From positions 1 through 64,000 of the forward strand of contig NZ_JAJOMA010000018.1 in assembly GCF_021129235.1 (NCBI RefSeq): a DNA stretch of 64,000 nucleotides, given 5' to 3'. Made by a program: the position numbers and the translations under genes. The notes under the pieces are model-generated. The model searched no databases, had not been told where the DNA came from, and was given only the letters and a program-made list of their open reading frames with translations. Shown one piece after another: positions 9,634 to 54,382 of this stretch (position 1 is the first letter of the stretch; each line of letters opens with the position of its first letter). The DNA is from Kineosporia mesophila. GTDB lineage: Bacteria > Actinomycetota > Actinomycetes > Actinomycetales > Kineosporiaceae.

Positions 9634-9711
9634 GTGATCAGGCAAGGCATCCCCGGAGTTCTGGAACTGCCGAGCGAAGTTCTAGAGCCCGGGGACACCT
9701 TGCCTGATCAC
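9634..9711. repeat. Palindromic intergenic element A (78 bp)
   Basis: This is an imperfect inverted repeat lying between the convergent treY and PPK2 genes. The arms begin GTGATCAGGCAAGG and end CCTTGCCTGATCAC, so both arms carry the change from the family's usual CATGCA core to CAGGCA and pairing is kept. The interior has TTCTGGAA and TTCTAGAG, variants of the TTCTAGAA boxes seen in other copies. It probably acts as a bidirectional terminator or is a REP-like element. Confidence 0.85.
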
Positions 9712-9720
9712 GAACGAGGT

Positions 9721-10608
9721 TCAGCCGGCCGTCAGTAGCGCCTTCAGGCGCGCCCTCTCCGCCTCGACGTCGAACTTCGCGGCCGGCCACTGCGGGTCCA
9801 GCGTGGTCAGGGTGTTGAGCAGCAGGCTCTGAACAGCCCAGCGGGCGTACCACTTCCGGTCGGCGGGCACCACGTGCCAGGGCGCCACCGCCGTCGAGCA
9901 GCGGGTCAGGGCCGCCTGGTACGCCTCCTGGTAGGAGTCCCAGTACGCGTGCTCGTCCAGGTCGGCGGTGCTGTACTTCCAGTACTTGTCCGGCCGGTAC
10001 AGCCGCTTCTCCAGGCGCCGCAGCTGCTCGTCCGGGGAGATGTGCAGCATGACCTTGACGATCGCCGTGCCCTGGGCCGCCAGCTCGGCCTCGAACGCGT
10101 TGATCGTGTCGTAGCGGGCCTCCCACTCGTCCGCGGGCACCAGGTCGTGCACGCGCACGATCAGCACGTCCTCGTAGTGCGAGCGGTCGAAGACCCCGAT
10201 CAGGCCCGGTCCCGGTACCTGGGGCCGCACCCGCCAGAGGAAGTCGTGGGCCAGCTCTTCCGGGGTGGGCGCCTTGAACGCCGTGTGCCGCACACCCTGC
10301 GGGTCGACCGCCCCGACGACGTGGCGCACGATGCCGCCCTTGCCGGAGGTGTCCATGCCCTGGATGATCAGCAGCACCCGGTCGGCGCTGGTGCCGCTGA
10401 ATCCCCCGGCGAAGAGCCGCTCCTGTAGCTGGGACAGGGCGTCCGCCCCGGCCTCCAGGGCGGCTTCTCCCTCGGCCTTCGAGCCGGAGAACCCCGGCGT
10501 ACCCGACGAATCTGTCGCGGCAAGGTCGAAACCCTCCCCCACCCGAAGCAACTCGGAAAGATGAGCCGGGTCGTGCGTCCGTTGCTGGTTCTTCGCCTTC
10601 TTCGCCAT
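9721..10608 (-). CDS. PPK2 family polyphosphate kinase (295 aa)
   Basis: PPK2 enzymes transfer phosphate between polyphosphate and nucleotides. The sequence shows the Walker A-like GMDTSGKGG, the FDRSHYEDVLIVRVH stretch (Walker B/lid region) and the conserved RPDKYWKYS, as in single-domain PPK2. The length is normal for one domain. The ATG at 10608 is chosen: AGGA lies 8-11 bases upstream and MAKKAKNQQRTHDPAH is a plausible N-terminus; upstream codons overlap the SDR gene. It follows the SDR stop by 13 bp, so the two probably form an operon. Whether it prefers ADP or AMP cannot be read from the sequence. Confidence 0.9.
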   Translation of the reverse strand: MAKKAKNQQRTHDPAHLSELLRVGEGFDLAATDSSGTPGFSGSKAEGEAALEAGADALSQLQERLFAGGFSGTSADRVLLIIQGMDTSGKGGIVRHVVGAVDPQGVRHTAFKAPTPEELAHDFLWRVRPQVPGPGLIGVFDRSHYEDVLIVRVHDLVPADEWEARYDTINAFEAELAAQGTAIVKVMLHISPDEQLRRLEKRLYRPDKYWKYSTADLDEHAYWDSYQEAYQAALTRCSTAVAPWHVVPADRKWYARWAVQSLLLNTLTTLDPQWPAAKFDVEAERARLKALLTAG

Positions 10609-10621
10609 GGGACCGATCCTG

Positions 10622-11383
10622 TCAGTTGCGGGAGCGGCCACCCAGCCGGGCCGCGACGAAACGCGTGACGCCCCGCGGCACCAGCCGCGAGAAGGTGACC
10701 AGCGCCTGATAGCGCAGACTGGGGATCGAGACCACGGCGTCCCTCTGCAGATCACGCAACCCCTGGTCGACCACGTAGCCGGCGTCGAGCCAGAGCAGGT
10801 CGGGGGCCCAGGCCATGTCGATACCCGCGCGGGCGTGGAACTCGGTGTGGGTGAATCCCGGGCACAGGGCCAGCACCCGCACGCCGGTGCCCTGCAGACC
10901 GTTGGCCAGGCCCTCGCTCAGCGCGATCACCCACGCCTTGCTCGCGGTGTAGGTGGAACCTCTCCCGGGGGTCAGCCCGGCCACGCTGGCCACGTTGATC
11001 ACGCCACCCGCACCCCGCTGCTTCATGCCGGGCAGCACCGCGTGGGTCAGCTCCATCACCGCGGTGACGTTGAGCTCGAGCTGATGGTGCAGCTTCTCGA
11101 AGGGTGTGGTCCAGAACTCGCCCTGCCCGCCGATCCCCGCGTTGTTGACCAGCAGATCAACCGGGCGGGCCGCGTCCGTCAGTCTCTCCACCACGGACCG
11201 GCGCTGCTGCGGATCGCCGAGATCGGCCACGATCACCTCGGCGTCACCCAGTTCGGCGCGGAGGGTCTCCAGACGGGCGGCGTCGCGCGCGACCAGGACG
11301 AGGTGGTAGCCGTCCCGCGCGAGGCGACGGGCGAAGGCGGTACCGATTCCGGCGGTGGGGCCTGTCACGAGTGCGGTAGGCAT
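10622..11383 (-). CDS. Short-chain dehydrogenase/reductase (253 aa)
   Basis: This is a classical SDR with an N-terminal Rossmann motif TGPTAGIG, the NNAG motif ([10 protein letters not shown]), and the catalytic Tyr/Lys in STYTASKAW. The acidic residue after the second strand is not obvious ([10 protein letters not shown] has Arg after Ala), which favours NADP(H). Substrate is unknown. It is divergent from treZ across 56 bp and upstream of PPK2 on the same strand. Nothing ties it to trehalose synthesis. Confidence 0.88.
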
Positions 11384-11439
11384 GCGCCACCGTAACCCGT
11401 GAGCAGGTGTTTCAGCCGATCTTCTGAGAGGCTGGACCC

Positions 11440-13224
11440 GTGCACGAGTTCACCCTCTGGGCGCCTGGCGCCAGTCGCGTCATGCTTCATCTGCCCGGCC
11501 TCGACCGCCGTGAACCACTGAGGCCGGTTGCCGACCCGGCCCTGGGGCAGGAGGCCACTCCCGAGACGGCCGGTCTCTGGCACGTATCCGTGGCCGAGGC
11601 GGAGCACGGCACCGACTACGCGTTCGCCCTCGACGGCGGCGACCCCCGTCCCGACCCGCGCAGCGCCTGGCAGCCCGACGGTGTGCACCAGGCCAGCCGG
11701 GTGTTCGACGCCGCGCGGCACTCCTGGTCGGACGGTGCCTGGCCGGGTCTGGACAGCCGCGGGGCCGTGTTCTACGAGCTGCACATCGGCACCTTCACCC
11801 CCGAGGGCACCCTCGACGCCGCGGTCGGCCGGCTCGACCACCTCGTCGAGCTCGGCGTGCGGATGATCGAGCTGCTGCCGGTCGCCGAGTTCTCCGGAGT
11901 GCGGGGATGGGGGTACGACGGGGTCGGGCTCTACGCCGTGCACCACTCCTACGGCGGGCCCGAGGCACTGCAGCGGTTCGTCGACGCGGCGCACGGCAAG
12001 GGCCTGGGCGTCTGTCTCGACGTCGTCTACAACCACCTCGGCCCCGACGGCAACTACCTGAGCGAGTTCGGTCCGTACTTCACCGACGCCCACACCACGC
12101 CGTGGGGCGACGCCATCAACCTCGACGACGAGGGCTCGCACGGCGTGCGCTCCTGGATCGTCGACAACGTGCTGCGCTGGTTCCGCGACTTCCACATCGA
12201 CTGCCTGCGGCTCGACGCCGTGCACGCGCTGGTCGACTCCTCGCCCCGGCACATTCTGGCCGAGATCTCCGAGCGCACCGCCGGCCTGTCGAAAGAGCTC
12301 GGCCGCCCGCTGGGCCTGGTCGCCGAGAGCGACCTGAACGACCCCTTCATGGTCGAGCCGGTCGCCGAGGGCGGGCGGGGGCTGACCGGGCAGTGGGACG
12401 ACGACGTGCACCACTCGATCCACTCCTTCATCACCGGCGAGACCCAGGGCTACTACTCCGACTTCGGCACCGCGTCGGTGCTCGCCCGGGTCTTGAAAGA
12501 GGCGTTCCGGCACGCCGGCGACTACTCCACCTTCCGCGGGAAGCACTGGGGCAAGCCGATTTCCCCGGGAAAGCACCGCGGGCACCAGTTCGTGGTCGCC
12601 ACCCAGAACCACGACCAGGTCGGCAACCGCGCCACCGGCGACCGGCCCAGTGCCACGATCGCCCCCGGCCGGCTGGCCGCCTCGGCCGCCCTCATGCTGA
12701 CCAGCGTCTACACGCCGATGCTCTTCATGGGTGAGGAGTGGGGAGCGCTCACCCCCTGGCAGTTCTTCACCTCGTTCGAGAGCCCCGAACTGGCGGACGC
12801 GGTGCGCCAGGGCCGGCGCGCGGAGTTCGGCTCCCACGGGTGGGCACCCGAAGAGGTCCCCGACCCGCAGGCCCTCTCGACCCGCGACGCGTCCGTGCTC
12901 GACTGGTCCGAGATCGGCCGGGTGGACGGCGAACTCGACCACGGCGCGATGCTGCGCTGGTACCGCGACCTGATCGCCCTGCGGGCCTCCTCCCCCGACC
13001 TGCTGAACGACTCGTTCGATGCGGTCACGGTGACCCACGGCGAGAGCTGGATCGCCATGCGGCGCGGCTCGTTCACCACCGTGGTGAACATCGGCCCGGA
13101 GGCCGACATCGTGGTGGCGACCGGTTCGGTGCCGCGGCTCACCTGGGGTTCCATCCAGACAGTGGACGAGGAAACCGTGCGGCTCCAGCCGGATGCCGTG
13201 GCTGTGCTGCAGATCCAGGGCTGA
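11440..13224 (+). CDS. treZ: Malto-oligosyltrehalose trehalohydrolase TreZ (594 aa)
   Basis: TreZ hydrolyses maltooligosyl-trehalose to release trehalose. It has an N-terminal CBM48-like domain ([19 protein letters not shown]) and a GH13 barrel with [27 protein letters not shown] (nucleophile about D259), [10 protein letters not shown] (acid/base about E296) and [11 protein letters not shown] (about D392). The length is typical. The start is GTG at 11440, with no strong ribosome-binding site. It completes the TreX-TreY-TreZ route from glycogen, with GlgX and TreY encoded 1.8 kb upstream on the same strand. A DUF4231 gene follows after 2 bp. Confidence 0.95.
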
Positions 13225-13226
13225 CC

Positions 13227-13667: not shown

Positions 13668-13681
13668 AGAGCGCCCCTGAT

Positions 13682-14515: not shown

Positions 14516-14525
14516 CTGAATTCCT

Positions 14526-17481: not shown

Positions 17482-17529
17482 GCCCCTGATCGTTCCACCT
17501 GTACGCCGGACGCCCTCAGCCGATCCCGA

Positions 17530-19439: not shown

Positions 19440-19520
19440 GTGATCATGCAAAACCTCCCCAGTCTTCTAGAACTCTCGACCTCACAGTTCTAGAACTCCG
19501 GGGAGGTTTTGCATGATCAC
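19440..19520. repeat. Palindromic intergenic element B (81 bp)
   Basis: Perfect 21-bp terminal arms start GTGATCATGCAAAACCTCCC and end with the exact reverse complement. The interior holds two TTCTAGAA boxes around a short spacer. It is a member of the window's 81-bp class and lies about 105 bp downstream of deoR. The right arm includes an ATG that opens a meaningless frame. Confidence 0.92.
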
Positions 19521-29840: not shown

Positions 29841-29898
29841 GGGGAGGTTTTGCATGATCACGGACAGGCTCTGGCCGGTGATCATGCGGAACCTCCCC
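29841..29898. repeat. Palindromic element C, inside-out arrangement (58 bp)
   Basis: The two family arms occur in reversed order. GGGGAGGTTTTGCATGATCA comes first, then an 11- to 13-nt spacer, then GTGATCATGCGGAACCTCCC. Elsewhere the GTGATCATGC arm is on the left. The unit still forms a hairpin of about 23 bp with a few mismatches. It is the only copy placed between divergent genes. Confidence 0.85.
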
Positions 29899-36580: not shown

Positions 36581-36588
36581 CCAAACCC

Positions 36589-36624
36589 CGCCAACCCCGC
36601 CAGACCCGCCAGACCCGCCAGACC
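36589..36624. repeat. 9-bp tandem repeat (CGCCAGACC), four copies
   Basis: CGCCAACCC (36589) is followed by three perfect CGCCAGACC units to 36624. It begins 8 bp after the DUF3000 stop and ends 48 bp before palindrome D. Confidence 0.88.
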
Positions 36625-36672
36625 TCGGCGGCCCCGGCCCGCCCCCGCCGCGGGCGCCCCCTCACCTCCTCC

Positions 36673-36753
36673 GTGATCATGCAGAACCTCCCCGGCGTTC
36701 TAGAACTCTTGCCGCCAGAGTTCTAGAACGCTGGGGAGGTTCTGCATGATCAC
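36673..36753. repeat. Palindromic intergenic element D (81 bp)
   Basis: This is the best-paired 81-bp copy: about 37 bp of stem with one mismatch and a 7-nt loop (TGCCGCC). Arms begin GTGATCATGCAGAACCTCCC. Both arms have the A-to-G change relative to copy B (CAGAACC/GGTTCTG), a compensated difference. Two TTCTAGAA boxes lie in the stem. It lies between the DUF3000 and LuxR-type genes, both on the plus strand. Confidence 0.93.
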
Positions 36754-36924
36754 GGACAAGGGAGACCTCAACCGTGGCGAGAACTAGCCGTCCGGGCTCT
36801 GGACCGTGCCCACCGGCGGATCCCGCCGTTCTCAAGTCGACACCGGGCGGTGCCGACCCTCTTGGGGAGCAATCACTCCGGCAGCTGAGGTCCAGCCTGG
36901 CCGGGCCAACCCTGGGAGGCTGAG

Positions 36925-39185: not shown

Positions 39186-39222
39186 CCGCGTCGGTGCCCA
39201 CCTCGTCCTCAATTTTTCGTTC

Positions 39223-39282
39223 GTGATCCTGCGAAGTGTCCCCGGACCGACGATTCGGTCCGGGGACCTTTTGCATGATCAC
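39223..39282. repeat. Palindromic intergenic element E (60 bp)
   Basis: This intermediate-size copy has outer arms GTGATCCTGCGAAG.../...TTTTGCATGATCAC, with an inner stem TCCCCGGACCGA/TCGGTCCGGGGA and a 4-nt loop CGAT. The TTCTAGAA boxes are replaced by GGACCGA. The palindrome extends outward to GTTC/GAAC. It lies 37 bp after the RNase D homologue stop. Confidence 0.85.
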
Positions 39283-39361
39283 GAACAGGGGAACGCGTAA
39301 CGTCTCCTCCGACGGGGCAATCTCTTCACAACGGGTGACGGAGAGGTTTCACGCCTACTGT

Positions 39362-39373
39362 TACTAGCGAGTA
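39362..39373. promoter_or_regulatory. Candidate TetR-type operator TACT-AGCG-AGTA upstream of fadA
   Basis: The 12-bp palindrome TACTAGCGAGTA sits about 65 bp upstream of the thiolase start, next to a possible -10 box TAGCAT (39372-39377). TACTnnnnAGTA-type sites are, from memory, typical of TetR-family regulators of fatty-acid degradation in actinobacteria. No regulator gene is adjacent. Confidence 0.45.
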
Positions 39374-39437
39374 GCATTCAGGTGGTTACGCCAACGCCGG
39401 CGGCAGCTGAGCCGGCTCATGATTCTGGGGAGGTCAC

Positions 39438-42775: not shown

Positions 42776-42790
42776 GCCCGTCACCCAGTT

Positions 42791-42834
42791 CGTGATTATG
42801 CAAACCTTCCCCGGGGAAGGTTTGCATAATCACG
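42791..42834. repeat. Palindromic element F, minimal form, perfect 44-bp palindrome
   Basis: GTGATTATGCAAACCTTCCC(C) is followed directly by its exact reverse complement (42792-42833), with one more C/G pair outside. There is no loop. It equals the outer arms of the 81-bp class with the TTCTAGAA interior removed. The change GATC to GATT is mirrored by AATC on the other arm. It lies 15 bp after the fadB stop. Confidence 0.93.
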
Positions 42835-42969
42835 GCGGGTTCCATGAGGGACGCACGATCTGTCACCTTGGGTGCGCGGCTAGTAAGGATTTTCCGACGC
42901 ACGGGTACACAGCGTTTACGATTGGGCCTCAGACCGGCTTCTGGTGGCTTCGATGGCACTCTCCGCTAT

Positions 42970-42975
42970 TACGGT
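42970..42975 (+). promoter_or_regulatory. -10 box TACGGT of a leaderless gene
   Basis: TACGGT is followed by GGGCATC and the ATG at 42983, exactly the layout seen before the RNase D gene. This sets the start at 42983 rather than the in-frame upstream ATG at 42944 or 42953. Confidence 0.6.
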
Positions 42976-42982
42976 GGGCATC

Positions 42983-43801
42983 ATGCCCGACGTCATCGGA
43001 ACAGACGGAACCTCGCTGCGCCGCTGCGTACTCGCCGTGAGCGTCATCGACGACATCGACCTGACGCCCGGCGACGACGGGGTGTTCGTGCCCGACGCCG
43101 ACGGTGTGCTGATCACCTGGTCGATGATCCGCCAGGTCATCGGCGGCCAGGCGCCCGAGGGAGCGACCGCCCGGCACCGCGTGGCCACCCTGCTGCAGCT
43201 GCACCGGGTCGCCGTCGATCTGGGTGCCGACGCCCCGGCCACCTTCCGCGACGCCCTGCGGCTGATCGCCCTGCCGCCCGGCCATGTCGACCATCTAGGC
43301 CCGGACTGGGCGGTGCAGACGCTGCCCGGCGGGGCCCTGGAGCTCGGGTACGGCGTCTACGGCCTGCTCGACGAGCCCGACCGGTGCGTGCCGCTCGCGC
43401 CGTCCCTGGCCGAGCAGGTCGGGGTCACAGGACTCCAGACCTGGGCCTCCCTGCGCGAGTACACCGAGCGGATGGGGGCTCTCGCGGCGGCCCGGCTCTC
43501 GCGGGACGGTCGCCAGGGGGTGATCCGCCCGGTCGGCGGCTGTGACGTGCTGGCCCTGCTGACCTCTCGCACCCTGCGCCGGCACCTGGCCGAGGGCGAC
43601 GGGGTGGGCATGCGGGCCGTGGCCTCCCCCACCCGGCGGCGGGCCTGGTACGACCTGCGGCACATGGACCCGGGTTTCGTGCAGGCCGCCTGGCACCTCA
43701 CCGACGAGCCCGACCGGGGCCTGGAGATTCCCCTGCTGGTGACGGCCGACGAGGTGGCGGTGCCGAAACAGCACCGCCGAGGCCGGCACGCGTCCCGGTG
43801 A
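42983..43801 (+). CDS. Conserved-looking hypothetical protein (272 aa)
   Basis: I do not recognise a family. The protein begins MPDVIGTDGTSLRRCVLAVS and contains GVFVPDADGVLITWSMIRQVIGG, two segments rich in Leu/Ala helices and a basic C-terminus. It is soluble, with no signal or transmembrane segment. The start is set by the leaderless promoter. It stands alone between fadB and the convergent dxs, each separated from it by a family palindrome. Confidence 0.75.
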   Translation: MPDVIGTDGTSLRRCVLAVSVIDDIDLTPGDDGVFVPDADGVLITWSMIRQVIGGQAPEGATARHRVATLLQLHRVAVDLGADAPATFRDALRLIALPPGHVDHLGPDWAVQTLPGGALELGYGVYGLLDEPDRCVPLAPSLAEQVGVTGLQTWASLREYTERMGALAAARLSRDGRQGVIRPVGGCDVLALLTSRTLRRHLAEGDGVGMRAVASPTRRRAWYDLRHMDPGFVQAAWHLTDEPDRGLEIPLLVTADEVAVPKQHRRGRHASR

Positions 43802-43832
43802 GGGAGCCGCCTCCTCCGCGATTTTCCTCTCC

Positions 43833-43913
43833 GTGATCATGCAAAACCTCCCCGGCGTTCCAGAACTCTTGGCCTCACAGTTCTAGAACTCCGGGGAGAT
43901 TTTGCATGATCAC
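43833..43913. repeat. Palindromic intergenic element G (81 bp)
   Basis: Arms begin GTGATCATGCAAAACCTCCC and end GGGGAGATTTTGCATGATCA(C), with one mismatch. The interior has TTCCAGAA and TTCTAGAA boxes. It lies between convergent genes: 31 bp after the unknown gene and 18 bp after the dxs stop. Confidence 0.92.
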
Positions 43914-43931
43914 GAGGGATTCTGGGCGCGA

Positions 43932-45836
43932 TCAGGCGCGGGGGACGTCTGCCATCGCGTGCTCGGACTGCCGGGAGAAGTGCTCCACGACCTCGCGGGA
44001 GACCTCCTGCGCGGTGAGGCCGACCTGCTCCAGCACCTGGGTGCGGCTGGCGTGGTCGAGGAACTCCTGCGGGATGCCGAAACTGCGCACCGCGGTGGGC
44101 ACCCGGGCCTGGGCGAGCGCGGCGGCGACCTGGGCGCCGATACCGCCGGCCACCCCGTTGTCCTCCACCACGACCACCAGCTGGTGGCGCGCGGCGAGGG
44201 TGGGCAGGGCCTCGTTCACCGGCACCACCCAGCGCGGGTCGACCACGGTGACCCCGATGCCCTGCTGGTTCAGCCCCTCGGCCACGGACAGCGCGAGGGC
44301 GGTCATCGAGCCGACGGCCACGACCAGCACGTCCTCGTCGCCCTCCCGGTGCAGCAGATCCATGCCGCCGATCCGCTCGGTGGTGGGCACCTCGTTTACC
44401 ATCTGCCCCTTCTGGAACCGCAGCACCGTCGGGCCGTCCTCGACGGCGACGGCCTCGCGCAGCAGCTCGCGCAGCCGCACGGCGTCGCGCGGGGCGGCGA
44501 TCCGGATACCCGGCACCAGGCCCATCAGCGACAGGTCCCACATGCCGTTGTGACTGGCACCGTCGTCACCGGTGATGCCGGCCCGGTCGAGCACGAAGGT
44601 GACGCCCTCGCGGTGCAGCGCGACGTCCATCAGCACCTGGTCGAAGGCGCGGTTGAGGAACGTGGCGTAGACCGCGACGACCGGGTGCAGGCCGCCCCGG
44701 GCCATCCCGGCGGCGCTGGTGACGGCGTGCTGCTCGGCGATGCCGACGTCGAAGACGCGCTGGGGGTACTTCTCGGCGAAGCGGTGCAGGCCGACCGGGA
44801 TCAGCATGGCGGCCGTGATACCGACCACGTCGGGCCGCTCGTCGGCGATCTTCACGATCTCGTCGGCGAACACGCTGGTCCAGCTCTGGCCGGACTTGCT
44901 GCTGACCGGCTTACCGGTCTCCGGGTCGATGATGCCGATGGCGTGGAACTGGTCGGCCTCGTCGTTGCGCGCGGGGGCGTAGCCGCGGCCCTTCTCGGTG
45001 ATCGCGTGCACGATGACCGGGCCGCCGAAGCCCTTGGCCCGCTGCAGGGCGAACTCCATCGCCTCCAGGTCGTGGCCGTCGACCGGGCCGACGTACTTGA
45101 TGCCGAGATCCTCGAACAGGCCCTGCGGGGCCACGATGTCCTTGATCCCCTTCTTCATGCCGTGCAGGGTGCCGTAGGCCAGCCGGCCCGGCGTACCCCC
45201 GCGCTGCAGTACCGACTTGCCCAGGTCGAGGACCTTCTCGTAGCTGTTCAGGGTGCGCAGCGTGGCCAGCCGCTCGGACAGGCCGCCGATGGTCGGGGCG
45301 TAGGAACGCTCGTTGTCGTTCACCACGATCACCAGGTTGCGCTCCTGGCCGACGGCGATGTTGTTGAGCGCCTCCCAGGCCATGCCGCCCGTCAGCGCAC
45401 CGTCACCGATGATCGCGACCACGTGCCGGTCGCCGCGACCGGTCAGCTGGTTGGCCTTGGCCAGGCCGTCGGCCCAGGACAGGGACGAGGAGGCGTGGCT
45501 GCTCTCGACGATGTCATGCTCGGACTCGGCACGGGAGGGGTAGCCGGACAGGCCGCCCCGGCGCTTCAGCGCACTGAAGTCGTGCCGGCCGGTGATCAGC
45601 TTGTGCACGTACGACTGGTGCCCGGTGTCGAACACAATCGCATCGCTCGGGGAGTCGAACACCCGGTGCACGGCCAGGGTCAGCTCGACGACGCCCAGGT
45701 TCGGGCCCAGGTGGCCGCCGGTGCGGGAGACCTCGCGGATCAGGAACGCCCGGATCTGCTGGGCCAGATCGGTGAGCTGGGTCGCATCGAGCGCTCGCAG
45801 GTCGTCCGGGCCGTGGATGTCCGTGAGCGCCACCAT
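43932..45836 (-). CDS. dxs: 1-deoxy-D-xylulose-5-phosphate synthase Dxs (634 aa)
   Basis: Dxs condenses pyruvate and glyceraldehyde-3-phosphate with thiamine diphosphate, the first step of the MEP isoprenoid pathway. The ThDP-binding motif is [34 protein letters not shown] and [15 protein letters not shown] mark the N-terminal domain, and [18 protein letters not shown] the pyrimidine-binding domain. The length is typical. It may start at the ATG 45836 or the next GTG. No other MEP gene is in the window. Confidence 0.95.
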
Positions 45837-45980
45837 CGACTACGCATCTCCTCAGCTGCCAGGAATCCAGAACGTGCAGATGGACGGCGAAAACCGCTGA
45901 CGAGTTCGCCGCCCCGACCACGATTCTAGGGTCGCCCGGCGGGGCGTGCTGCGTACCCGTGCCCGTAATGGATTAGATCC

Positions 45981-45993
45981 ACGAAACTTTCGT
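45981..45993. promoter_or_regulatory. 13-bp palindrome ACGAAA-C-TTTCGT upstream of dxs
   Basis: This perfect odd palindrome lies in the 202-bp gap between the small unknown gene and dxs, about 145 bp before the dxs start. CGAAACTTTCG-like sequences are known from xylan/xylose-related operators in Streptomyces. A xylose-type transporter operon is just upstream on the same strand. A possible dxs -10 box TAGAAT (minus strand) is at 45923-45928. Confidence 0.45.
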
Positions 45994-46038
45994 AATTCAA
46001 CCGGATCACACCATCACCCTGTGCACCCGTCACGGCAC

Positions 46039-46419
46039 TCACAGGCGCGGGATGTACCTCTCCCCGCGGAGCGCCCGCGCGATCAGCTCGACCCCGCGCG
46101 AGGCCGCCATCAGCCGGGCCTGCTCGTGCTCGACGGCCTCGATCATGTCGTCCAGCGCGGCGGGCGGGAGGTCGCGGGAGAGGTCGGTGCGGATCCGGCC
46201 CAGCCCCCGGGCCAGGGCCTGCCGCTGCGCCCCCACGTGCTGGTAGGCCAGCCAGGCCAGGCCGAGGGGCTGGCGGCGCAGCACGCCGTACCCGCGGAAG
46301 TCGGCGGGGCACAGGTCGAGCAGCCAGGCCGAGGCGGTCTGCTCCCAGTCGGTCGTGTCCGGGGGCCGGACCGCGTCCGGCCAGCCCGGCGGAACCGGCC
46401 CATTTCGGTTCGTGATCAT
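46039..46419 (-). CDS. Small hypothetical protein, start inside palindrome H (126 aa)
   Basis: I do not recognise the family. The protein is helical and Arg/Ala/Leu-rich: WEQTASAWLLDLCPADFRGY, GLAWLAYQHVGAQRQALARGL, and a charged middle. Such small Actinobacteria-specific proteins are often annotated only as hypothetical. The only ATG available is at 46419 and lies inside palindromic element H; GGGGA in the same element sits about 9 bases upstream and could serve as ribosome-binding site. It follows the ROK regulator gene by 55 bp. Confidence 0.65.
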   Translation of the reverse strand: MITNRNGPVPPGWPDAVRPPDTTDWEQTASAWLLDLCPADFRGYGVLRRQPLGLAWLAYQHVGAQRQALARGLGRIRTDLSRDLPPAALDDMIEAVEHEQARLMAASRGVELIARALRGERYIPRL

Positions 46420-46453
46420 GCGAACTTTTCCCGGGGAAGGTTCGCACGATCAC
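46412..46453. repeat. Palindromic element H, minimal form (42 bp)
   Basis: GTGATCATGCGAACTTTTCC pairs with GGGGAAGGTTCGCACGATCA(C). It is loopless with three mismatches, at least some of which could be wobble pairs in RNA. It has the same size class as F. It overlaps the start codon of the gene at 46039-46419 and lies 21 bp after the ROK regulator stop. Confidence 0.88.
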
Positions 46454-46474
46454 GGACAGAGATCCCGGGGGGCC

Positions 46475-47680
46475 TCACGACAGGGCCGCCACCGGGTCGG
46501 CGAGGATCCCCTGCCAGGCGTACTCCCCCGCGCCGAGCAGCACCGCGTCCGGGCCGAGCTCGGGCAGCACCAGCCGCACCTGCTCCATCGGGGCCCGCAG
46601 CGCGGTCTCCCCGAGCACATCCCTCACCCGGTCCGCCACCAGCGGGTAGAGGTCCTGCAGCAGACCGCCGAGCACGACGAGCTGCGGGTTGAACACGTTC
46701 ACCACATTGCCCAGGCCGATGCCGAGGTAGTCGGCCACCTCGTCCAGCCGTGAGGCCAGCGCCGCGCCGCCGGACCGCAGCAGCACACCCACCTCGCCCT
46801 CGTCGGCGTCCTCCCGCAGACCGAGGGCGCGAGCCATCGAACCGGCCCCGATCTCGGTCTCCCAGCACCCCCGCGCACCGCAGCGGCACCGCCGGCCACC
46901 GCGCCGGACCGTGATGTGGCCGAGCTCACCGGCGTACCCGCCGGATCCGGCCAGCGGCAGACCGCCGCTGATCACACCGCAACCGACACCGGTCTCGCCC
47001 TCGACGAACACCACGTCGTCGTAGCCGCGGGCCACGCCGCGCTGGTGCTCGGCGAGCACACCCAGGTCACCGTCGTTGGCCAGGCCGACGCGCAGGTCGT
47101 CGACGCCCTTCTCGGCGAGTGCCTCGTCCAGCAGTTCACCCAGGGGCTGGTCCTCCCAGCCGAGGTTGGGCGCGAACCGCACGTTGCCGTCCCGTCCCCG
47201 CACCACCCCGGGCACCGCGACGCCCAGGGAGAGCACGTGCCGGCCCGCCCGGGGGCCGGACAGCAGCTCCCGGGCCAGGGAGGCGAGCAGCCGGGCCACC
47301 GTGCGGGCGGAACCGTCGGAGAACTGCCGGCTGCGCCGGGCCACCACCACACCGCCCAGACCGATGAGAGCCATCGAGACCCGGCCGATCGCGATGTCCG
47401 CGGCCAGCACCTGCACCGTCTCCGGGCGGGTGCGGACCACCGCGGACGGCCGGCCGGCCTTGCCCTTGCGGCCGTCGCCGGGTTCCTCCAGCACGGCGCC
47501 GAGGGTGGCCAGCTCGGCCACCAGCCCGGCCACCGTGCTGCGGTTGAGCCCGGTCAGGTCGGTGAGCCGGGCCCGTCGCATCGGGCCGCCCAGGTGCAGC
47601 AGCCGCAGCAACTGGGACAGGTTGTGCCGGCGGACGTCCGGGGCCTCCCCGGTCAGACCGACGGGAAGGCGGGTCGTCAC
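46475..47680 (-). CDS. ROK family transcriptional regulator, XylR/NagC type (401 aa)
   Basis: The N-terminal winged helix-turn-helix (about residues 18-70, RRHNLSQLLRLLHLGGPMRRARLTDLTGLNRSTVAGL-like region) is followed by a ROK sugar-binding domain. The zinc signature is intact: GELGHITVRRGGRRCRCGARGCWE. It is the last gene of the ABC operon and overlaps the permease stop by ATGA. It is the natural repressor of this transporter, presumably relieved by its sugar. Confidence 0.9.
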   Translation of the reverse strand: MTTRLPVGLTGEAPDVRRHNLSQLLRLLHLGGPMRRARLTDLTGLNRSTVAGLVAELATLGAVLEEPGDGRKGKAGRPSAVVRTRPETVQVLAADIAIGRVSMALIGLGGVVVARRSRQFSDGSARTVARLLASLARELLSGPRAGRHVLSLGVAVPGVVRGRDGNVRFAPNLGWEDQPLGELLDEALAEKGVDDLRVGLANDGDLGVLAEHQRGVARGYDDVVFVEGETGVGCGVISGGLPLAGSGGYAGELGHITVRRGGRRCRCGARGCWETEIGAGSMARALGLREDADEGEVGVLLRSGGAALASRLDEVADYLGIGLGNVVNVFNPQLVVLGGLLQDLYPLVADRVRDVLGETALRAPMEQVRLVLPELGPDAVLLGAGEYAWQGILADPVAALS

Positions 47681-48939
47681 CTGCCGGTCGCGGCTGACCG
47701 CCGTCGGGACAGGGCATCGACACTGGCGGCGAGAAGAAGAACGGCTCCGGTCACGATGAACTGAATACCAGACTTCTGGGTAATCAGTGGAAGGCCGTTC
47801 TGGATCACCGCGACCACCAGGCCACCGAGGATGGCGTCGATGATCCGGCCCTTGCCGCCGAACAGCGAGGTACCACCGATGACCGCGGCACCGACCGCGT
47901 ACAGCAGCGTCGAGGAACCACCGGTGGTGGGCGAGACACCGTTGTTGTACGAGGCGAACAGCACACCGCCGAAGGCGGCGAGCACCGAGCCGATGGCGAA
48001 GCAGACGATCTTGATCATCGGCACGTTGATACCCGCACGCCGGGCCGCCTCGGCGTTGCCGCCGACCGCGTAGACGTGCCGGCCGAACGCGGTGCGGCCC
48101 AGCAGGAAGGTCAGCACCAGCAGGAACACCAGGGTGACCGGGACGATCAGCGGCAGGCCCTTGAGCGACTTGATCGCCGGGTTCACCGCCCGCTCCTGGT
48201 TGAACAGGATCGTCACCGCGACCATGATCACCGCGAGCGCACCGACCTTCGCCGCGGTCACCGAGGTGCTGGTGACGGGCAGGTCGGCCTTACGGCGGGA
48301 GATCGAACCGAGCACCGCGATCGCGGCGTACCCGCCGACGACCAGCACGGTGAGCACCCAGCCGAGGGCCGGGCTGAGGTTCTTGTTCATGATCGCCAGG
48401 ATCGTCTCGTTGGTGAGGCTGATCGTGCCGCCCTCACCGACCACGAGCAGCAGCACACCCTGCAGGGCCAGGAAGAAGGCCAGGGTGACCACGAACGAGG
48501 GGATGTTGAGCTGGGCCACCAGGGCGCCCATCACCGAGCCGATGACCAGACCGGTCGCCACGCAGGCGATCACGGCGACCGGCCAGGCCACGCCGTGGTT
48601 GGTCATCAGCACCACGAGCACGGCGGCGCCGACGCCGGAGGTGAAACCGGCGGCCAGGTCGATCTCGCCCAGCAGCAGGACGAAGATCAGGCCCATCGCG
48701 ATGAAGATGACCGGGGCGGCCTGGTTGAGCAGGTTCGCGGCGTTCCGGGTGGAGGCGAAGCTGTCGGGCCGCATCGCGGAGAAGAAGATCACCAGCGCGA
48801 TGAACCCGAGAATGGCCGGGAGAGAACCGACGTCGCCACCACGAAGTTTGTCGACGTAGGCCTGGACGGTTCCGCCGATGCTGTCCTCCGGCCGCCGGGG
48901 CGCGGACGGCCGGCTCGGGGCTGCGGTTCCGGTGGTCAT
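47677..48939 (-). CDS. Sugar ABC transporter permease, XylH/CUT2 type (420 aa)
   Basis: This CUT2-type permease has about 10 or more hydrophobic helices and the motif LLGEIDLAAGFTSGVGAA typical of ribose/xylose permeases. AIGSVLAAFGGVLFASYNNGVSPTTG and GGTSLFGGKGRIIDAILGG match the conserved C-terminal half of XylH. It overlaps the ATPase gene and the regulator gene by 4 bp each (ATGA), so the operon is tightly coupled. Confidence 0.92.
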   Translation of the reverse strand: MTTGTAAPSRPSAPRRPEDSIGGTVQAYVDKLRGGDVGSLPAILGFIALVIFFSAMRPDSFASTRNAANLLNQAAPVIFIAMGLIFVLLLGEIDLAAGFTSGVGAAVLVVLMTNHGVAWPVAVIACVATGLVIGSVMGALVAQLNIPSFVVTLAFFLALQGVLLLVVGEGGTISLTNETILAIMNKNLSPALGWVLTVLVVGGYAAIAVLGSISRRKADLPVTSTSVTAAKVGALAVIMVAVTILFNQERAVNPAIKSLKGLPLIVPVTLVFLLVLTFLLGRTAFGRHVYAVGGNAEAARRAGINVPMIKIVCFAIGSVLAAFGGVLFASYNNGVSPTTGGSSTLLYAVGAAVIGGTSLFGGKGRIIDAILGGLVVAVIQNGLPLITQKSGIQFIVTGAVLLLAASVDALSRRRSAATGR

Positions 48940-49739
48940 GCGACAGCCTCCTGGGCGAGCGCGGGCGGCAGCCCGAGGTCGCCACTGCGACCGGATGTGA
49001 TGAGCTCGACGATCTGGGTGGTGCTCGTGGACCGGGCGTCGATCTGGGCGGCGGTGCGGCCCAGATACAGGGCGCAGACGCTGTCCGCGACGCGCAGCAC
49101 ATCATTCATGTTGTGCGAGATCAGGATCACGGCCAGGCCGTTGTCGGCCAGCCGCCGCACCAGCTGCAGCACCTGCTCGGTCTGCGCCACGCCGAGGGCC
49201 GCGGTGGGCTCGTCGAGGATCACCAGCTTGCTGTTCCACAGCACCGACTTGGCGATCGCGACGGTCTGCCGCTGACCTCCGGAGAGGCTGGAGACCTTCT
49301 GCCGCACCGACTTCAGCGTGCGCACGGACAGGCCGGCCAGGGTCTCCTGGGCCCGCCGTTCCATCGCCGTCTCGTTCAGGGTGAGCCCCGAGCGCATCTC
49401 CCGGCCGAGGAACATGTTCTGCACCACGTCCAGGTTGTCGCACAGCGCGAGGTCCTGGTACACGACCTCGATGCCCAGCGCCGCCGACTGTTTCGGGTGG
49501 TTGACCGTCACGGTCTTCCCCTCGAAACGGTATTCACCGGAGTCGAAGGCGTAGATGCCGGCGATGCCCTTGACAAAGGTCGACTTGCCCGCCCCGTTGT
49601 CACCGACCAGCGCGGTCACCTTGCCCGCCCAGGCGTCCAGGCCGACGTCCTTGAGCACGTGCACCGCACCGAAGCTCTTGTTGATTCCCCGCAGGCTGAG
49701 TATCGGCTCCCCGCCTGCGTTCTGGGTGTTCTCTGTCAT
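48936..49739 (-). CDS. Sugar ABC transporter ATPase with a single ABC domain (267 aa)
   Basis: One nucleotide-binding domain is present: Walker A GDNGAGKST, Q-loop YQDLALCDNL, signature LSGGQRQTVAIA, Walker B LVILDEPTAAL and H-loop ISHNMNDV. Classical CUT2 ATPases (XylG, RbsA) carry two such domains in about 500 aa; this is a half-size version that must dimerise, as in the FrcA-like group. It is complete at both ends, so not truncated. It lies between the permease and the binding-protein genes. Confidence 0.92.
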   Translation of the reverse strand: MTENTQNAGGEPILSLRGINKSFGAVHVLKDVGLDAWAGKVTALVGDNGAGKSTFVKGIAGIYAFDSGEYRFEGKTVTVNHPKQSAALGIEVVYQDLALCDNLDVVQNMFLGREMRSGLTLNETAMERRAQETLAGLSVRTLKSVRQKVSSLSGGQRQTVAIAKSVLWNSKLVILDEPTAALGVAQTEQVLQLVRRLADNGLAVILISHNMNDVLRVADSVCALYLGRTAAQIDARSTSTTQIVELITSGRSGDLGLPPALAQEAVA

Positions 49740-49774
49740 CTGGTCGCTCCTACCGCAGCCGGGTGATGAAGGCC

Positions 49775-49808
49775 GGGTTCCCGGGCCGGATACCCGGCCC
49801 GGGAACCC
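49775..49808. terminator. Hairpin between binding-protein and ATPase genes
   Basis: GGGTTCCCGGGCCGG pairs perfectly with CCGGCCCGGGAACCC around a 4-nt loop. It lies in the 84-bp gap after the substrate-binding protein gene. Such hairpins commonly stop part of the transcription and protect the upstream mRNA, so the binding protein is made in excess over the membrane parts. Confidence 0.8.
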
Positions 49809-49823
49809 GTGGAACCGAAGACG

Positions 49824-50942
49824 TCAGGAGACGCCGTTCTCCGTGCAGGCCTTCTTCAGCTCCGCGGTGGTGCAGAGCTTCGCGACGGTGGTCTGACCGG
49901 CCGAGATCACGTCCTTCACCTTGTCCGCGGTGATCGCCTCGGGCACCAGCAGAACCGACTTCACGTCCTTGTTCAGCTTGGTGTCCTTGGTGGTGCCGGT
50001 GGCCAGCGCGTCCGCGGCCGAGGTGTCACCCTTGGTCAGCGCCACGGCGAGGTCGGCGGCCGAGACGGCCTCCTTGTTCTTGATGTCCTTGAAGATCGTC
50101 ACGCACTGCGTGCCGAGCAGCACCCGCTGCAGGCCCTCGTCGGTGGCGTCCTGGCCGGTGACCGGGATCTTGCCGGCCTCACCGGCGGTGTCCAGACGGG
50201 CCACGACCGCACCCGCGAGACCGTCGTTGGCGGCCGCGACGCCGACGAAGTCACCCTTCTGCTGGGTGTAGATCTGCTCGAAGAGCGTGCCGGCCTTCTG
50301 GTTGTCCCAGTCCGGCACCGCCTGCGAGTCGGTGACCTTGTAACCGGCGTCGGTGACGACCTTGTCGTAACCCTGCTTGAACAGGGTGGCGTTGTTGTCG
50401 GTGGGCGCGCCGTTCAGCTCGACCACGTTGCCGGTCTTGTCGCCGTTGGCCTGCATGCACGAGACCAGGGCGGTGCCCATGGCCGTGCCGACCGCGACGT
50501 TGTCGAACGAGACGTAGTACGAGGCGCCGCCGCCCAGCGTGAGGCGGTCGTAGTCGATCACGGGAACGCCTGCGTCCGTAGCCTTCTTGATCGCCGCGGT
50601 GCCGCTGGCGTCGTCGAGGCTGTCGATGAGCAGGACGGTCACACCGCTGGAGAGCATGCCCTCGGCGATGGACTGGAACTTGTTCTTGTCGCCGCCGGCG
50701 TTCTGGATGTCGTAGTCGACACCGGCCTTCTCGAAGGCGGCCTTGAGAGCGGGGCGGTCGATGCTCTCGTAACGGGCCGAGGACGCGGCGTCCGGAAGGA
50801 TGACGCCGACCTTGCCCTTCGCCGTGCTGGTGCTGCCCGAACCACCGGAACCCGACGAGTCGGACGAACCGCCGCCACAGGCCGAGAGGGCCAGAATGCC
50901 GGCGGTACCGACCGAAAGGGCCGCAAAGAGGTGCTTGCGCAT
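49824..50942 (-). CDS. Sugar ABC transporter substrate-binding lipoprotein, XylF type (372 aa)
   Basis: This is a periplasmic-binding-protein family lipoprotein. The lipobox LSAC puts the lipidated cysteine at residue 22, followed by a Gly/Ser linker. The mature domain shows VGVILPDAASSARYESIDRP-like N-terminus, VPVIDYDRL, YVSFDNVAVG, GAPTDNNATLFKQGY, AAANDGLAG and GQDA, the pattern of XylF/ChvE D-xylose/aldose-binding proteins. It is the first gene of the operon. Xylose is the best guess; no xylose isomerase or xylulokinase gene is in the window. Confidence 0.92.
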   Translation of the reverse strand: MRKHLFAALSVGTAGILALSACGGGSSDSSGSGGSGSTSTAKGKVGVILPDAASSARYESIDRPALKAAFEKAGVDYDIQNAGGDKNKFQSIAEGMLSSGVTVLLIDSLDDASGTAAIKKATDAGVPVIDYDRLTLGGGASYYVSFDNVAVGTAMGTALVSCMQANGDKTGNVVELNGAPTDNNATLFKQGYDKVVTDAGYKVTDSQAVPDWDNQKAGTLFEQIYTQQKGDFVGVAAANDGLAGAVVARLDTAGEAGKIPVTGQDATDEGLQRVLLGTQCVTIFKDIKNKEAVSAADLAVALTKGDTSAADALATGTTKDTKLNKDVKSVLLVPEAITADKVKDVISAGQTTVAKLCTTAELKKACTENGVS

Positions 50943-51062
50943 GTGCTGTGGTCCTCCTCCGCACCGGCAACTCTGCCGGTGCTAGCTGGGGACCCCGCAG
51001 GTCAGCGGGATCCCGACGGCGACTCCTCACGCGTCAGAACCCCATCGTCGGCCCTGACGCGA

Positions 51063-51085
51063 ATATGTTGCCGCTCACAACATAT
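51063..51085. promoter_or_regulatory. Inverted repeat ATATGTTG-7-CAACATAT upstream of the XylF-type gene
   Basis: Perfect 8-bp arms with a 7-bp centre lie about 120 bp before the binding-protein start, in an AT-rich patch. On the minus strand it reads TTGTGAGCGG then CAACA. A second hairpin (GCACCGGCA...TGCCGGTGC, about 50960-50981) follows downstream. It is the likeliest operator for the ROK protein of the same operon. Confidence 0.5.
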
Positions 51086-51226
51086 GCACGTCGGTCCCCG
51101 ATGCGCCAGCGCCGGATGTGGCCTGCGTCATTACAGGTCGGTAACGCCAGAGCCACTGATCGCTCGAAGTCATCTGCGAACGCCACATCGGCAGGCCGGA
51201 CGCGGGACTTGCGGCCCAAACACACG

Positions 51227-51271
51227 GGGCCCGCCCGGGTTCCCCCACATGGAGGGAACCCGGGCGGGCCC
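51227..51271. terminator. Terminator of acnA, 18-bp perfect stem
   Basis: GGGCCCGCCCGGGTTCCC pairs exactly with GGGAACCCGGGCGGGCCC around a 9-nt loop. It starts 26 bp downstream of the acnA stop (minus strand) and also lies upstream of the xyl operon promoter, insulating it. Confidence 0.85.
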
Positions 51272-51296
51272 GGTAGCTCTGTGTGACGAGCGGGAG

Positions 51297-54077
51297 CTAC
51301 GCGACGAGTGACCGCAGCACGTACTGGAGGATGCCGCCGTTGCGGTAGTAGTCGGCCTCACCGGGCGTGTCGATGCGGACGACCGCGTCGAACTCGACCG
51401 TGGAGCCGTCCTCCCTGGTGGCGGTGACCTTCACGGTGGACGGGGTGGTGCCGTTGTTGAGCTCGGTCACCCCGGCGATCGCGAAGGTCTCGGTGCCGTC
51501 CAGGCCCAGTGACCCGGCGTTCTCGCCGGCCGGGAACTGCAGCGGCAGAACACCCATGCCGATCAGGTTCGAGCGGTGGATCCGCTCGAAGCTCTCGGTG
51601 ATGACGGCGCGGACGCCGAGCAGGCTGGTGCCCTTGGCGGCCCAGTCCCGGCTGGAACCCGAGCCGTACTCCTTGCCCGCCAGCACGACCAGCGGCACCC
51701 CGGCGGCCGCGTAGGCCTGGGCCGCGTCGTAGATCGTGGTCTGCTCGCCCCCGGCCAGGAAGTTCCGGGTGAAGCCGCCCTCGACGCCGTCCAGCAGCTG
51801 GTTGCGCAGCCGGATGTTCGCGAACGTGCCACGGATCATCACCTCGTGGTTACCGCGACGGGAACCGTAGGAGTTGAAGTCCTTCCGGGCCACACCGTGC
51901 TCGGCCAGGTAGATGCCCGCGGGCGAGTCCACCTTGATCGAGCTCGCCGGGCTGATGTGGTCGGTGGTCACCGAATCGCCCAGTTTGGCCAGCACCCGGG
52001 CGTTCTCGATGTCTGTCACGGGCGCGGGCGTGCTCTGCATACCCTCGAAGTACGGGGGCTTGCGCACGTACGTCGACTCGGCGTCCCAGGCGAACGTGCC
52101 GCCCTCGGGCGTGGGCAGCGACTTCCAGCGCTCGTCCCCGGCGAACACGTCGGCGTAGTCCCCGACGAACATGTCCTTGGTGATGGAGTTCTCGACCACG
52201 GCGGCGACGTCCTGCGCGCTCGGCCAGATGTCGGCCAGGAACACGTCCTCGCCGTTGCCGCCGGTGCCGATCGGGTCCGTCGCCGGGTCCCAGTCCATGG
52301 TGCCGGCCAGCGCGTACGCGATCACCAGGGGCGGCGAGGCGAGGTAGTTCATCTTGATGTCCGGGTTGATCCGGCCCTCGAAGTTCCGGTTGCCCGAGAG
52401 CACCGAGACCACCGAGAGGTCGTTCTCCTGCACCGCGGCCGAAACCTCTTCGGGCAGCGGGCCGGAGTTACCGATACAGGTCACGCAGCCGTAGCCGACC
52501 AGGTGGTAACCGAGCTTCTCCAGGTACGGCGTCAGGCCGGCCCTGGCGTAGTAGTCCATCACCACCTTGGAACCCGGCGCCATCGTGGTCTTCACCCACG
52601 GCTTCACCGAGAGACCGCGCTCCACGGCGTTCTTCGCCAGCAGCGCCGCCGCCACCATCACCGAGGGGTTCGAGGTGTTGGTACAGGAGGTGATGGCCGC
52701 GATGGCCACGTGGCCGTGGTCCAGCTCGGTCTTCGTGCCGTCGGCCATGGTGATCGGGACCCGCTGGTGCGGGCGGCCGTTCGACTCGTGCGGCGCGGCC
52801 GGCTCGTCGGCCGCGGTCGACTCCGAGGCCGTCGGCGAGTCACTGGCCGGGAACGACTCGACCAGGGCCTCGTCCTGCGGACCCTCCTGCGTCACGTAGT
52901 CGAGAATCGTTCCGCGGAAAGACTTCTTCGCGTGCGACAGCTCGATGCGGTCCTGCGGGCGCTTCGGCCCGGCGATGCTGGGGACCACCGTGGACAGGTC
53001 GAGCTCGAGGTACTCGGAGTACTTGGCCTCGGTCGAGGGGTCGTGCCACAGACCCTGCTCCTTGGTGTACGCCTCGACCAGCGCCACCTGCTGGTCGCTG
53101 CGGCCGGTCAGGCGCAGGTAGTCGAGCGTGACCTCGTCGATCGGGAAGATCGCGCAGGTGGAACCGAACTCGGGGCTCATGTTGCCGATCGTGGCCCGGT
53201 TGGCCAGCGGCACGGCGCCGACGCCCTCGCCGTAGAACTCGACGAACTTGCCCACCACACCGTGCTTGCGCAGCTGCTCGGTGATCGTCAGCACCACGTC
53301 GGTGGCGGTCACGCCGGCCGGGATCTCGCCACTCAGCCTGAAACCGACCACGCGCGGGATGAGCATGCTCACCGGCTGGCCCAGCATCGCGGCCTCGGCC
53401 TCGATACCGCCCACGCCCCAGCCCAGCACGCCGATGCCGTTGACCATCGTGGTGTGCGAGTCGGTGCCCACGCAGGTGTCGGGGTAGGCGATGCCGTCCC
53501 GCTCGAAGATGACCCGCGCCAGGTGCTCGATGTTGACCTGGTGCACGATGCCGGTACCCGGGGGCACCACCTTGAAGTCGTCGAAGGCCGTCTGCCCCCA
53601 GCGCAGGAACTGGTAGCGCTCACCGTTGCGCTGGTACTCCAGGTCGACGTTCTTCTCGAACGCGTCGGAGCGGCCGAACACGTCGGCGATCACCGAGTGG
53701 TCGATCACCATCTCGGCCGGGGCCAGCGGGTTGATCTTCGCCGGGTCGCCACCCAGGTCGGCGACGGCCTCACGCATCGTGGCCAGGTCGACGATGCAGG
53801 GCACACCGGTGAAGTCCTGCATGATCACGCGGGCCGGGGTGAACTGGATCTCGGTGTCCGGGTTCGCGTTCGGGTCCCAGCCGGCCAGGGCCCGGATGTG
53901 GTCCGCGGTGATGTTCGCGCCGTCCTCGGTCCGCAGGAGGTTCTCCAGCAGGACCTTGAGGCTGAACGGCAGCCCGGCGGCACCGGGCACGGCCGAGAGC
54001 CGGAAGATGTCGTAGCTCGCGTCCCCGGCCGAGAGCTCGCCGCGGGCGCCAAAGCTGTCGAGGCTGTCACTGCTCAA
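51297..54077 (-). CDS. acnA: Aconitate hydratase AcnA (926 aa)
   Basis: Aconitase interconverts citrate and isocitrate with a [4Fe-4S] cluster. Cluster cysteines lie in [13 protein letters not shown] (about residue 465) and [14 protein letters not shown] (about 530). [21 protein letters not shown] and [16 protein letters not shown] (swivel domain) are also clear. A Ser/Ala/Glu-rich insert of about 35 residues between the two halves is typical of actinobacterial AcnA. The start is TTG at 54077, with AAGGAG 6 bases upstream. The promoter holds an iron box and a second palindrome. A 10-bp direct repeat TAGATCGTCG (54089-54108) flanks the ribosome-binding site. Confidence 0.95.
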
Positions 54078-54131
54078 CGAGAGCTCCTTAGATCGTCGTA
54101 GATCGTCGTTTCCCCAGGCACCATACTAAAG

Positions 54132-54149
54132 TATCTCGACGTCAAGATA
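54132..54149. promoter_or_regulatory. 18-bp palindrome TATCTCGAC-GTCAAGATA in the acnA promoter
   Basis: Eight of nine base pairs match in this inverted repeat, 55 bp upstream of the TTG start. It resembles the TATCTTGA-type sites described for MarR-family TamR, which senses citrate/aconitate-type metabolites in Streptomyces and controls aconitase (recalled, not checked). It abuts and slightly overlaps the iron box. Confidence 0.55.
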
Positions 54150-54164
54150 GTTAGCCGAACCTAA
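54146..54164 (-). promoter_or_regulatory. Iron box (IdeR/DmdR type) upstream of acnA
   Basis: On the minus strand the site reads TTAGGTTCGGCTAACTATC. The first 15 bases match the IdeR/DmdR1 consensus TTAGGTTAGGCTAACCTAA at all but one position; the last four are weak. This suggests that aconitase, an iron-sulfur enzyme, is under control of a DtxR-family iron regulator. Confidence 0.6.
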
Positions 54165-54227
54165 CTCGAGGGTGCCCCGTCAAGAGCCGGGGTGCAGGTT
54201 GACGCGCGGGAGCTTCCGGGCCGCCCC

Positions 54228-54263
54228 GTGATCTCCGTGATCTCCGTGATCTCCGTGATCTCC
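54228..54263. repeat. 9-bp tandem repeat (GTGATCTCC), four copies
   Basis: Four perfect units of GTGATCTCC end 38 bp before palindrome I. The unit itself begins GTGATC, like the terminus of the palindrome family. Confidence 0.9.
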
Positions 54264-54301
54264 GCGGCCCCGCGAGCCGGGCGTCCCCGCGTCCTCTGTT
54301 C

Positions 54302-54382
54302 GTGATCATGCAAAAGTTCCCCGGCGTTCTAGAACTCTTACGCGCAGAGTTCTGGAACGCCGGGGAGACTTTGCCTGATCAC
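54302..54382. repeat. Palindromic intergenic element I (81 bp)
   Basis: Arms begin GTGATCATGCAAAAGTTCCC and end GGGGAGACTTTGCCTGATCA(C). The inner stem GGCGTTCTAGAACTCT/AGAGTTCTGGAACGCC is strong, with a 7-nt loop. It lies 26 bp after the stop of the TRAM methyltransferase gene (minus strand) and about 220 bp upstream of the acnA start. GTTC/GAAC extend the palindrome. Confidence 0.92.

Follow-up and report, generated by a model that had tools for sequence, protein, structure and literature searches.

Among described systems, the closest is that of the repetitive extragenic palindromic (REP) sequences and bacterial interspersed mosaic elements (BIMEs) with their partner RAYT (TnpA-REP). As described in the available part of the source, the RAYT gene lies between inverted REPs, gene and repeat co-evolve, and the abundance of the high-copy extragenic palindromes tracks the gene (PMC2817692). 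The available part of another study reports CGTC-tagged REPs without a dedicated transposase (PMC3733652). In this study, we analyzed a 64,000-nucleotide stretch of the Kineosporia mesophila genome (contig NZ_JAJOMA010000018.1, positions 1 to 64,000; hereafter the window), in which an initial annotation had described nine dispersed palindromes, A to I (Table 1). We propose, with a probability of about two in three, that these palindromes are the short gene-less members of a REP-like selfish family, and that their partner is a homing-type nuclease encoded in a gene-bearing unit elsewhere in the same genome.

The building block of the palindromes is a 21-bp arm, consisting of the tip GTGATCATGC, six variable bases and TCCCC, which occurs as an inverted pair. 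The genome of the window (G000) comprises 7.78 Mb in 61 contigs, one of which is referred to as C1. Outside the window, at C1:144963-146085, inverted arms of this kind lie 1.1 kb apart around one gene with a 319-residue product. In the 464 kb of G000 that were read, no other inverted pair of arms with room for a gene was seen, nor was a transposase seen between arms. The product matched AbiEi_4 above the cut-off, and MTES_1575 and AbiEi_1 below theirs. When the protein was searched in 12 genomes, the best homologues were found in the genus mate G005 (92% identity) and in G034 and G016 (45%), all of them repeat-bearing, and their genes likewise lay between inverted GTGATCATGC arms, present singly or as tandem arrays. 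G001 to G004 gave weak matches only (E 8e-6 to 3.5e-9). PF04480 (DUF559) was rejected as a marker of the family, as its single G000 match was a different locus, on contig C56.

Inverted repeats private to the gene bracket most of the family genes examined. When 396 genomes of the order were searched with a profile built from four sequences and the five best candidates of each were scored, 31 had a strong homologue (E <= 1e-40). A scan of named genomes identified 64 loci, which belong to Nocardioides, Gordonia, Cellulomonas, Williamsia, Rhodococcus, Mycolicibacterium and others. The bracketing repeats included GTGATCATGC, GTGATCATGG, GTGATCAAGC, CGAGAGAGC, CCGACAGCGC and TTGAGTTGGG. Among the named loci, 60 were used, four being dropped for short flanks; 49/60 had an inverted match of 12 bp or longer, compared with 8/60 for direct orientation and 7% for pairs across loci. 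With refined gene ends, inverted matches of at least 12 bp were present in 69/78 family loci versus 8/129 ordinary genes of 700-1200 nt, and those of at least 15 bp in 52/78 versus 0/129. The refined set was drawn from 94 loci, of which ten were dropped for flanks shorter than 260 bp and six by hand because the open reading frame (ORF) was truncated or misplaced (L106, L136, L161, L179, L188 and L195, with L106 nonetheless well flanked); it includes the discovery loci L104, L105 and L107 and two pairs at least 95% identical. A broader profile applied to nine genomes gave 28 matches with approximate gene ends, and inverted matches of at least 12 bp were found in 14/16 of those spanning both protein parts, 2/11 with the AbiEi part only and 0/1 with the nuclease part only. 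At three loci, L183 (Gordonia oryzae), L165 (Metallococcus carri) and L167 (Gordonia otitidis), 12-19 copies of one 9-mer flank a single family gene. One of 20 loci read, G222b, had no shared 10-mer.

The repeat co-varied with the protein. This comparison used the 62 of the 78 loci in which a 9-mer was present at least three times (21/78 pass in direct orientation). A repeat 7-mer was common to 12/12 protein pairs at 70-95% identity, 16/54 at 55-70%, 38/223 at 45-55% and 22/1512 below 45%; two more pairs, at least 95% identical, also had one in common. Within a single genome, G019, two genes 73% identical carried GTGATCATGG, and two other genes carried GATCAAGGAA and GCGACGATCA. These results show a strong association of the nuclease gene with the repeats; a causal role of the nuclease is inferred.

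The palindromes themselves are a genome-wide family with far more than the nine copies of the window. Allowing two mismatches at most, we counted 336+357 matches of the core arm in G000 and 14+22 of a reversed-pattern control (693 versus 36). The high density that the initial annotation had attributed to the window was borne out by eight strict copies in its 64 kb, compared with 14 in 400 kb of C1 in the same scan. With up to one mismatch, 226+236 arms were found in G000 and 219+232 in G005, while the other four of five genus mates had 1-6 arms per strand. G016, from a different family, had 39+35 arms with a different inner sequence; across genomes the tip was common and the remainder of the stem varied. 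The palindrome pattern GTGATCATGCN{4,34}GCATGATCAC was present in 16 of the 396 genomes, 12 of them with at least three copies, and none was seen with the reversed control.

The distribution of palindromes matched that of the gene for two repeat classes. Genomes with at least three GTGATCATGC palindromes carried the gene in 8 of 12 cases, compared with 31 of 396 overall (Fisher p 2e-7; the genomes compared are related and some loci are duplicates). In those eight genomes the fetched gene was flanked by the tip GTGATCATGC or, in G081, by its variant GTGATCTTGC. A second motif, GTGATCATGG, was taken from gene flanks first; at least three palindromes of this type were found in six genomes, all six gene-positive, and in four of them (G019, G094, G120 and G159) the fetched gene bore GTGATCATGG itself.

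Comparison of relatives showed presence/absence variation of both the palindrome copies and the gene unit. In G003 the unit was missing and 16 bp separated the matching flanks; G001, G002 and G004 had a left flank that stopped near the same base, with a rearranged right side. The comparison showed one empty and two occupied sites. Between G000 (C1:144963-146085) and G005 (C1:1543690-1544783), the interior of the unit was inverted and the flanks were collinear, as expected of recombination between arms. Palindromes H and I had no counterpart at the G005 sites, and D and C1:154646 look like remnants in G005. Conversely, two G005 elements were absent from G000, one of which was a clean 128-bp insertion directly after a stop codon, with a duplication of at most a possible 2 bp; three other aligned sites were not clean. 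C/T-rich tracts, differing from copy to copy, lie outside the arms in G000 and G005, and in the clean insertion at G005 C1:1559783 they arrived together with the palindrome. At the G005 locus orthologous to B, a longer second unit stands beside the palindrome, with arms ~200 bp apart and no recognisable gene; a check of this unit for a gene remnant gave no convincing match to the nuclease.

According to the initial annotation, differences between copies were mirrored in both arms, so that pairing rather than sequence was kept. We counted changes over the outer 20 stem positions of ten orthologous pairs, leaving out B, C, D and the hybrid C1:24777. The ten elements showed 13 paired changes, compared with 1.8 doubles expected under arm independence, which agrees with that claim; 12 one-arm changes, about as common, go against it by the annotation's own test. 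The 13 paired changes were confined to four elements and came as blocks resembling the stem types of other copies (AACCTCCCC, GTGTCCCC), and in element A the loop stayed recognisable in G005 while the stem block differed. They look like swapped stem blocks, not base-by-base compensation, and conversion from other copies followed by one arm correcting the other would fit them better. An extra ~30-bp hairpin was present in both arms, 1.1 kb apart, of the G005 gene unit (L065), and in one arm only of the G000 palindrome C1:24777-24886 and its G005 orthologue, as if arms had been copied onto each other.

The protein has two parts. By both profile and fold, the N-terminal two thirds correspond to AbiEi, a winged-helix protein. 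The model of the homologue L135 (mean predicted local distance difference test score, pLDDT, 88.6; predicted template modelling score, pTM, 0.86) matched AbiEi 6y8q with E 2.5e-6 in a fold search. The C-terminal part appears to be a nuclease of the Vsr-like PD-(D/E)XK type, whose fold is also found in an EDxHD homing endonuclease. In 23 aligned sequences E210, D243, D256 and H261 were invariant and D270 nearly so, and we take E210, D243, H261 and D270 to be the EDxHD residues. The MTES_1575 profile matched 36/36 members with E <= 0.01, scoring below Pfam's cut-off in L135 and P0001. In the available part of a 2013 survey, this domain was named a novel Vsr restriction endonuclease (PMC3710099), and a Caulobacter Vsr-like DUF559 protein has been linked to the DNA damage response in the accessible portion of another report (PMC12907096).

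The palindrome family works like the REP system, with a partner gene in inverted repeats, a co-evolving repeat and an abundance that follows the gene. It is not a member of that system, as the defining enzyme was not found: a search for the Y1/RAYT transposase (PF01797) gave 0/10 among the repeat-bearing genomes searched, whereas the control was found in 5/14 known genomes. The partner looks like a Vsr-like nuclease with an AbiEi-like part instead of a Y1 HUH transposase, and the tip is GTGATCATGC or another sequence, not GTAG. Of the initial suggestion that a transposase elsewhere spreads a REP-like element, the REP-like character and the enzyme encoded elsewhere are favoured, and the transposase gives way to the AbiEi/Vsr-like nuclease. 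The CGTC-tagged REPs are likewise palindromic and have no known enzyme, but their tip differs. The protein resembles the EDxHD homing endonuclease I-Bth0305I and the Vsr repair nuclease in weak fold matches and in conserved acidic and histidine residues; it differs in that neither an intron nor an intein was seen in its unit, and in that the short bracketing repeats also occur alone as palindromes. It resembles the AbiEi antitoxin of the type IV AbiE system over its N-terminal two thirds, but is fused to a nuclease-like domain, and in the loci read its bracketing repeats start with the stop codon or shortly past it.

We propose a mechanism in which the protein would bind the tip and cut, and cutting would spread or homogenise the repeats. 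The N-terminal part may recognise the conserved tip (here GTGATCATGC), which, by analogy, is a natural guess because AbiEi binds inverted repeats. The nuclease would then nick or cut DNA, and repair could use a palindrome as the source for filling the break or for overwriting another copy. Through such break-and-copy events, new palindromes would end up where they do no harm, in gaps behind stop codons, and stems would be swapped in concert.

Several observations weigh against this reading. The abundance of palindromes does not always follow the gene: the six GTGATCATGG genomes belong to a single genus, and the genes read in two of them, G107 and G146, bear other repeats; G002, G003 and G075 lack a strong gene match despite 3-4 palindromes each; and 23 of the 31 gene-positive genomes, from a scan restricted to five candidates each, have fewer than three first-type palindromes, several of their genes bearing other repeats. 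G007, the main exception, has 64 strict palindromes with the tip GTGATCATGCACTTTCGA, and its five family matches bear other repeats or none. A gene for these palindromes was sought: none of the five matches qualified, and no gene-sized inverted pair was seen by eye among the 100 places listed, on many contigs, from 68+74 arms counted. In the same genome L228 (C88:18505-19571) has a complete, identical palindrome on each side of the gene, and this palindrome was seen nowhere else in 398 kb sampled of ~5 Mb; therefore, the repeats of a gene need not be dispersed. Direct-orientation matches in the family were also above background (18/78 versus 9/129 at 12 bp or more; 8/78 at 15 bp or more). In the fold search the nuclease matches alone were not significant (Vsr 1cw0, 0.07; the I-Bth0305I catalytic domain 3r3p, 0.12; 1vsr, 0.18) and were outranked by two mitoribosome chains, and 3r3p was weak by sequence too (E 0.78).

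A rival that must be reckoned with, although we regard it as unlikely, is that the repeats are operators: the AbiEi-like protein would regulate its own gene, the dispersed palindromes would serve a global regulator or nucleoid-type protein as further binding sites, and the nuclease domain would have no part in spread. The binding of AbiEi to inverted repeats in its own promoter, described in the part available of that source (PMC7319586), and the co-variation of repeat and protein are what such operators would show. However, the inverted arrays stand on both sides of the gene rather than on the promoter side alone, dispersed copies occur after genes more than before them, and copies and gene unit come and go between relatives. 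A little less probable still is that the palindromes resemble miniature inverted-repeat transposable elements (MITEs) and are moved by an ordinary transposase that the search missed, the nuclease gene being captured cargo. Inverted arms around a gene, short gene-less copies and copy differences between relatives are all MITE-like, and the transposase search covered the Y1 type only; but the one gene-sized arm pair seen in the 464 kb of G000 holds the nuclease, the same nuclease type is repeatedly bracketed by unrelated repeats, and the single clean insertion shows no duplication beyond the possible 2 bp.

It is very improbable that selection for a hairpin role, for example in ending transcripts or protecting their 3' ends, accounts for the family, with generic recombination multiplying the copies and the nuclease link incidental. 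Such a role would suit the strong hairpins, the excess of paired changes over the expected doubles and the location after stop codons. Among 32 elements located in the window, in C1:1-400,000 or in 220 kb of G005, some of them mutual orthologues, 12 lay in convergent gaps, which make up 15% of intergenic length (p 0.001), and 3 in divergent gaps, which make up 28% (p 0.01). For the window, the statement that eight of nine copies lie 3' of a gene held for seven; C and D were called divergent from rough gene calls, and the call for D is doubtful because a 668-codon + strand ORF stops ~90 bp before it. On the other side stand the tolerated one-arm changes, the gain and loss of copies, the strong association with the nuclease and the terminator test. 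By the criterion of a G+C-rich hairpin followed by a T run, only E among D-I (positions 36000-55000) fitted an intrinsic terminator (1/6), so the idea of a dedicated terminator class was not upheld. A second match, at 54399-54416, adjoins I, and the region had nine matches in total versus 5.4 +/- 2.4 in shuffles. A search of the window against Rfam gave zero families at the gathering threshold, and with these two results terminators and Rfam RNAs were ruled out as the main explanation. Insertion into loops of existing hairpins, an idea taken from element I, was also rejected, as mean flank complementarity within the 37 elements was 6.12, no higher than the 6.19 of shuffled flanks.

As shown in Table 1, every one of the nine palindromes was confirmed at its coordinates, and each folds as a hairpin, with RNA energies of -24.2 to -72.8 kcal/mol. 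In the window GTGATCATGC with up to one mismatch occurred 36 times, versus a shuffle mean of 3.3 and maximum of 10, and a palindrome scan recovered 8/9 copies and zero in the reversed sequence. The ninth, C, escaped the scan because its arms are inside-out. The termini were said to be shared by all copies; the exact 10-mer is present at both outer ends in B, D and G only, in A, E, F, H and I one end or both deviate from it (GTGATCAGGC, GTGATCCTGC, GTGATTATGC, GCACGATCAC, GCCTGATCAC), and the claim fails for C, whose arms point the opposite way. In the 42-bp form the arms adjoin with no insert, the 58-60 bp forms have a short inner hairpin between the arms, and the 81-bp form contains another inverted pair, built around GTTCTAGAAC, whose loop measures ~10 bases. 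This loop varies among the printed 81-bp elements of G000 and G005 though the arms are nearly identical. Inside-out arm pairs recur, at 29841-29898 of the window and at C1:315153-315217 and C1:316636-316710, and may be junctions of neighbouring elements.

Table 1. Palindromes A to I of the window and the corresponding sites in the genus mate G005
Element	Position	Length	Remarks
Palindrome A	9634..9711	78 bp	Tip variant GTGATCAGGC in both arms; G005 orthologue has the same loop and another stem in both arms
Palindrome B	19440..19520	81 bp	G005 locus has the orthologue and a second, longer unit
C, inside-out arm pair	29841..29898	58 bp	Found in G005 with another block
Palindrome D	36673..36753	81 bp	Short tip-like remnant only at the G005 site
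Palindrome E	39223..39282	60 bp	Orthologue in G005
Palindrome F	42791..42834	44 bp	Perfect; tip GTGATTATGC; G005 site holds another palindrome
Palindrome G	43833..43913	81 bp	Orthologue in G005
Palindrome H	46412..46453	42 bp	Absent at the G005 site
Palindrome I	54302..54382	81 bp	Absent at the G005 site

A full-text literature search listed nothing linking the AbiEi/Vsr-like nuclease type to palindromic repeats; it covered few subscription papers and is weak evidence of novelty. For the family as a whole, the evidence leans somewhat towards an undescribed class of bacterial selfish elements, widespread in actinobacteria, in which AbiEi-Vsr-type nucleases each have a private short repeat around the gene, in some genomes with hundreds of palindromes, spread and homogenised by break-and-copy repair without a transposase. 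The partner of the repeat family described here belongs to another enzyme class than RAYT, and the rule that each gene has a private repeat, which tracks the protein, gives predictions for actinobacterial genomes in general. Should the repeats be driven by the nuclease, the RAYT-REP arrangement would have been reached in a second way, REP-like families without RAYT would have an enzyme, and nature would offer many pairs of protein and site in which to examine the DNA choice of AbiEi-like domains and Vsr-like nucleases.

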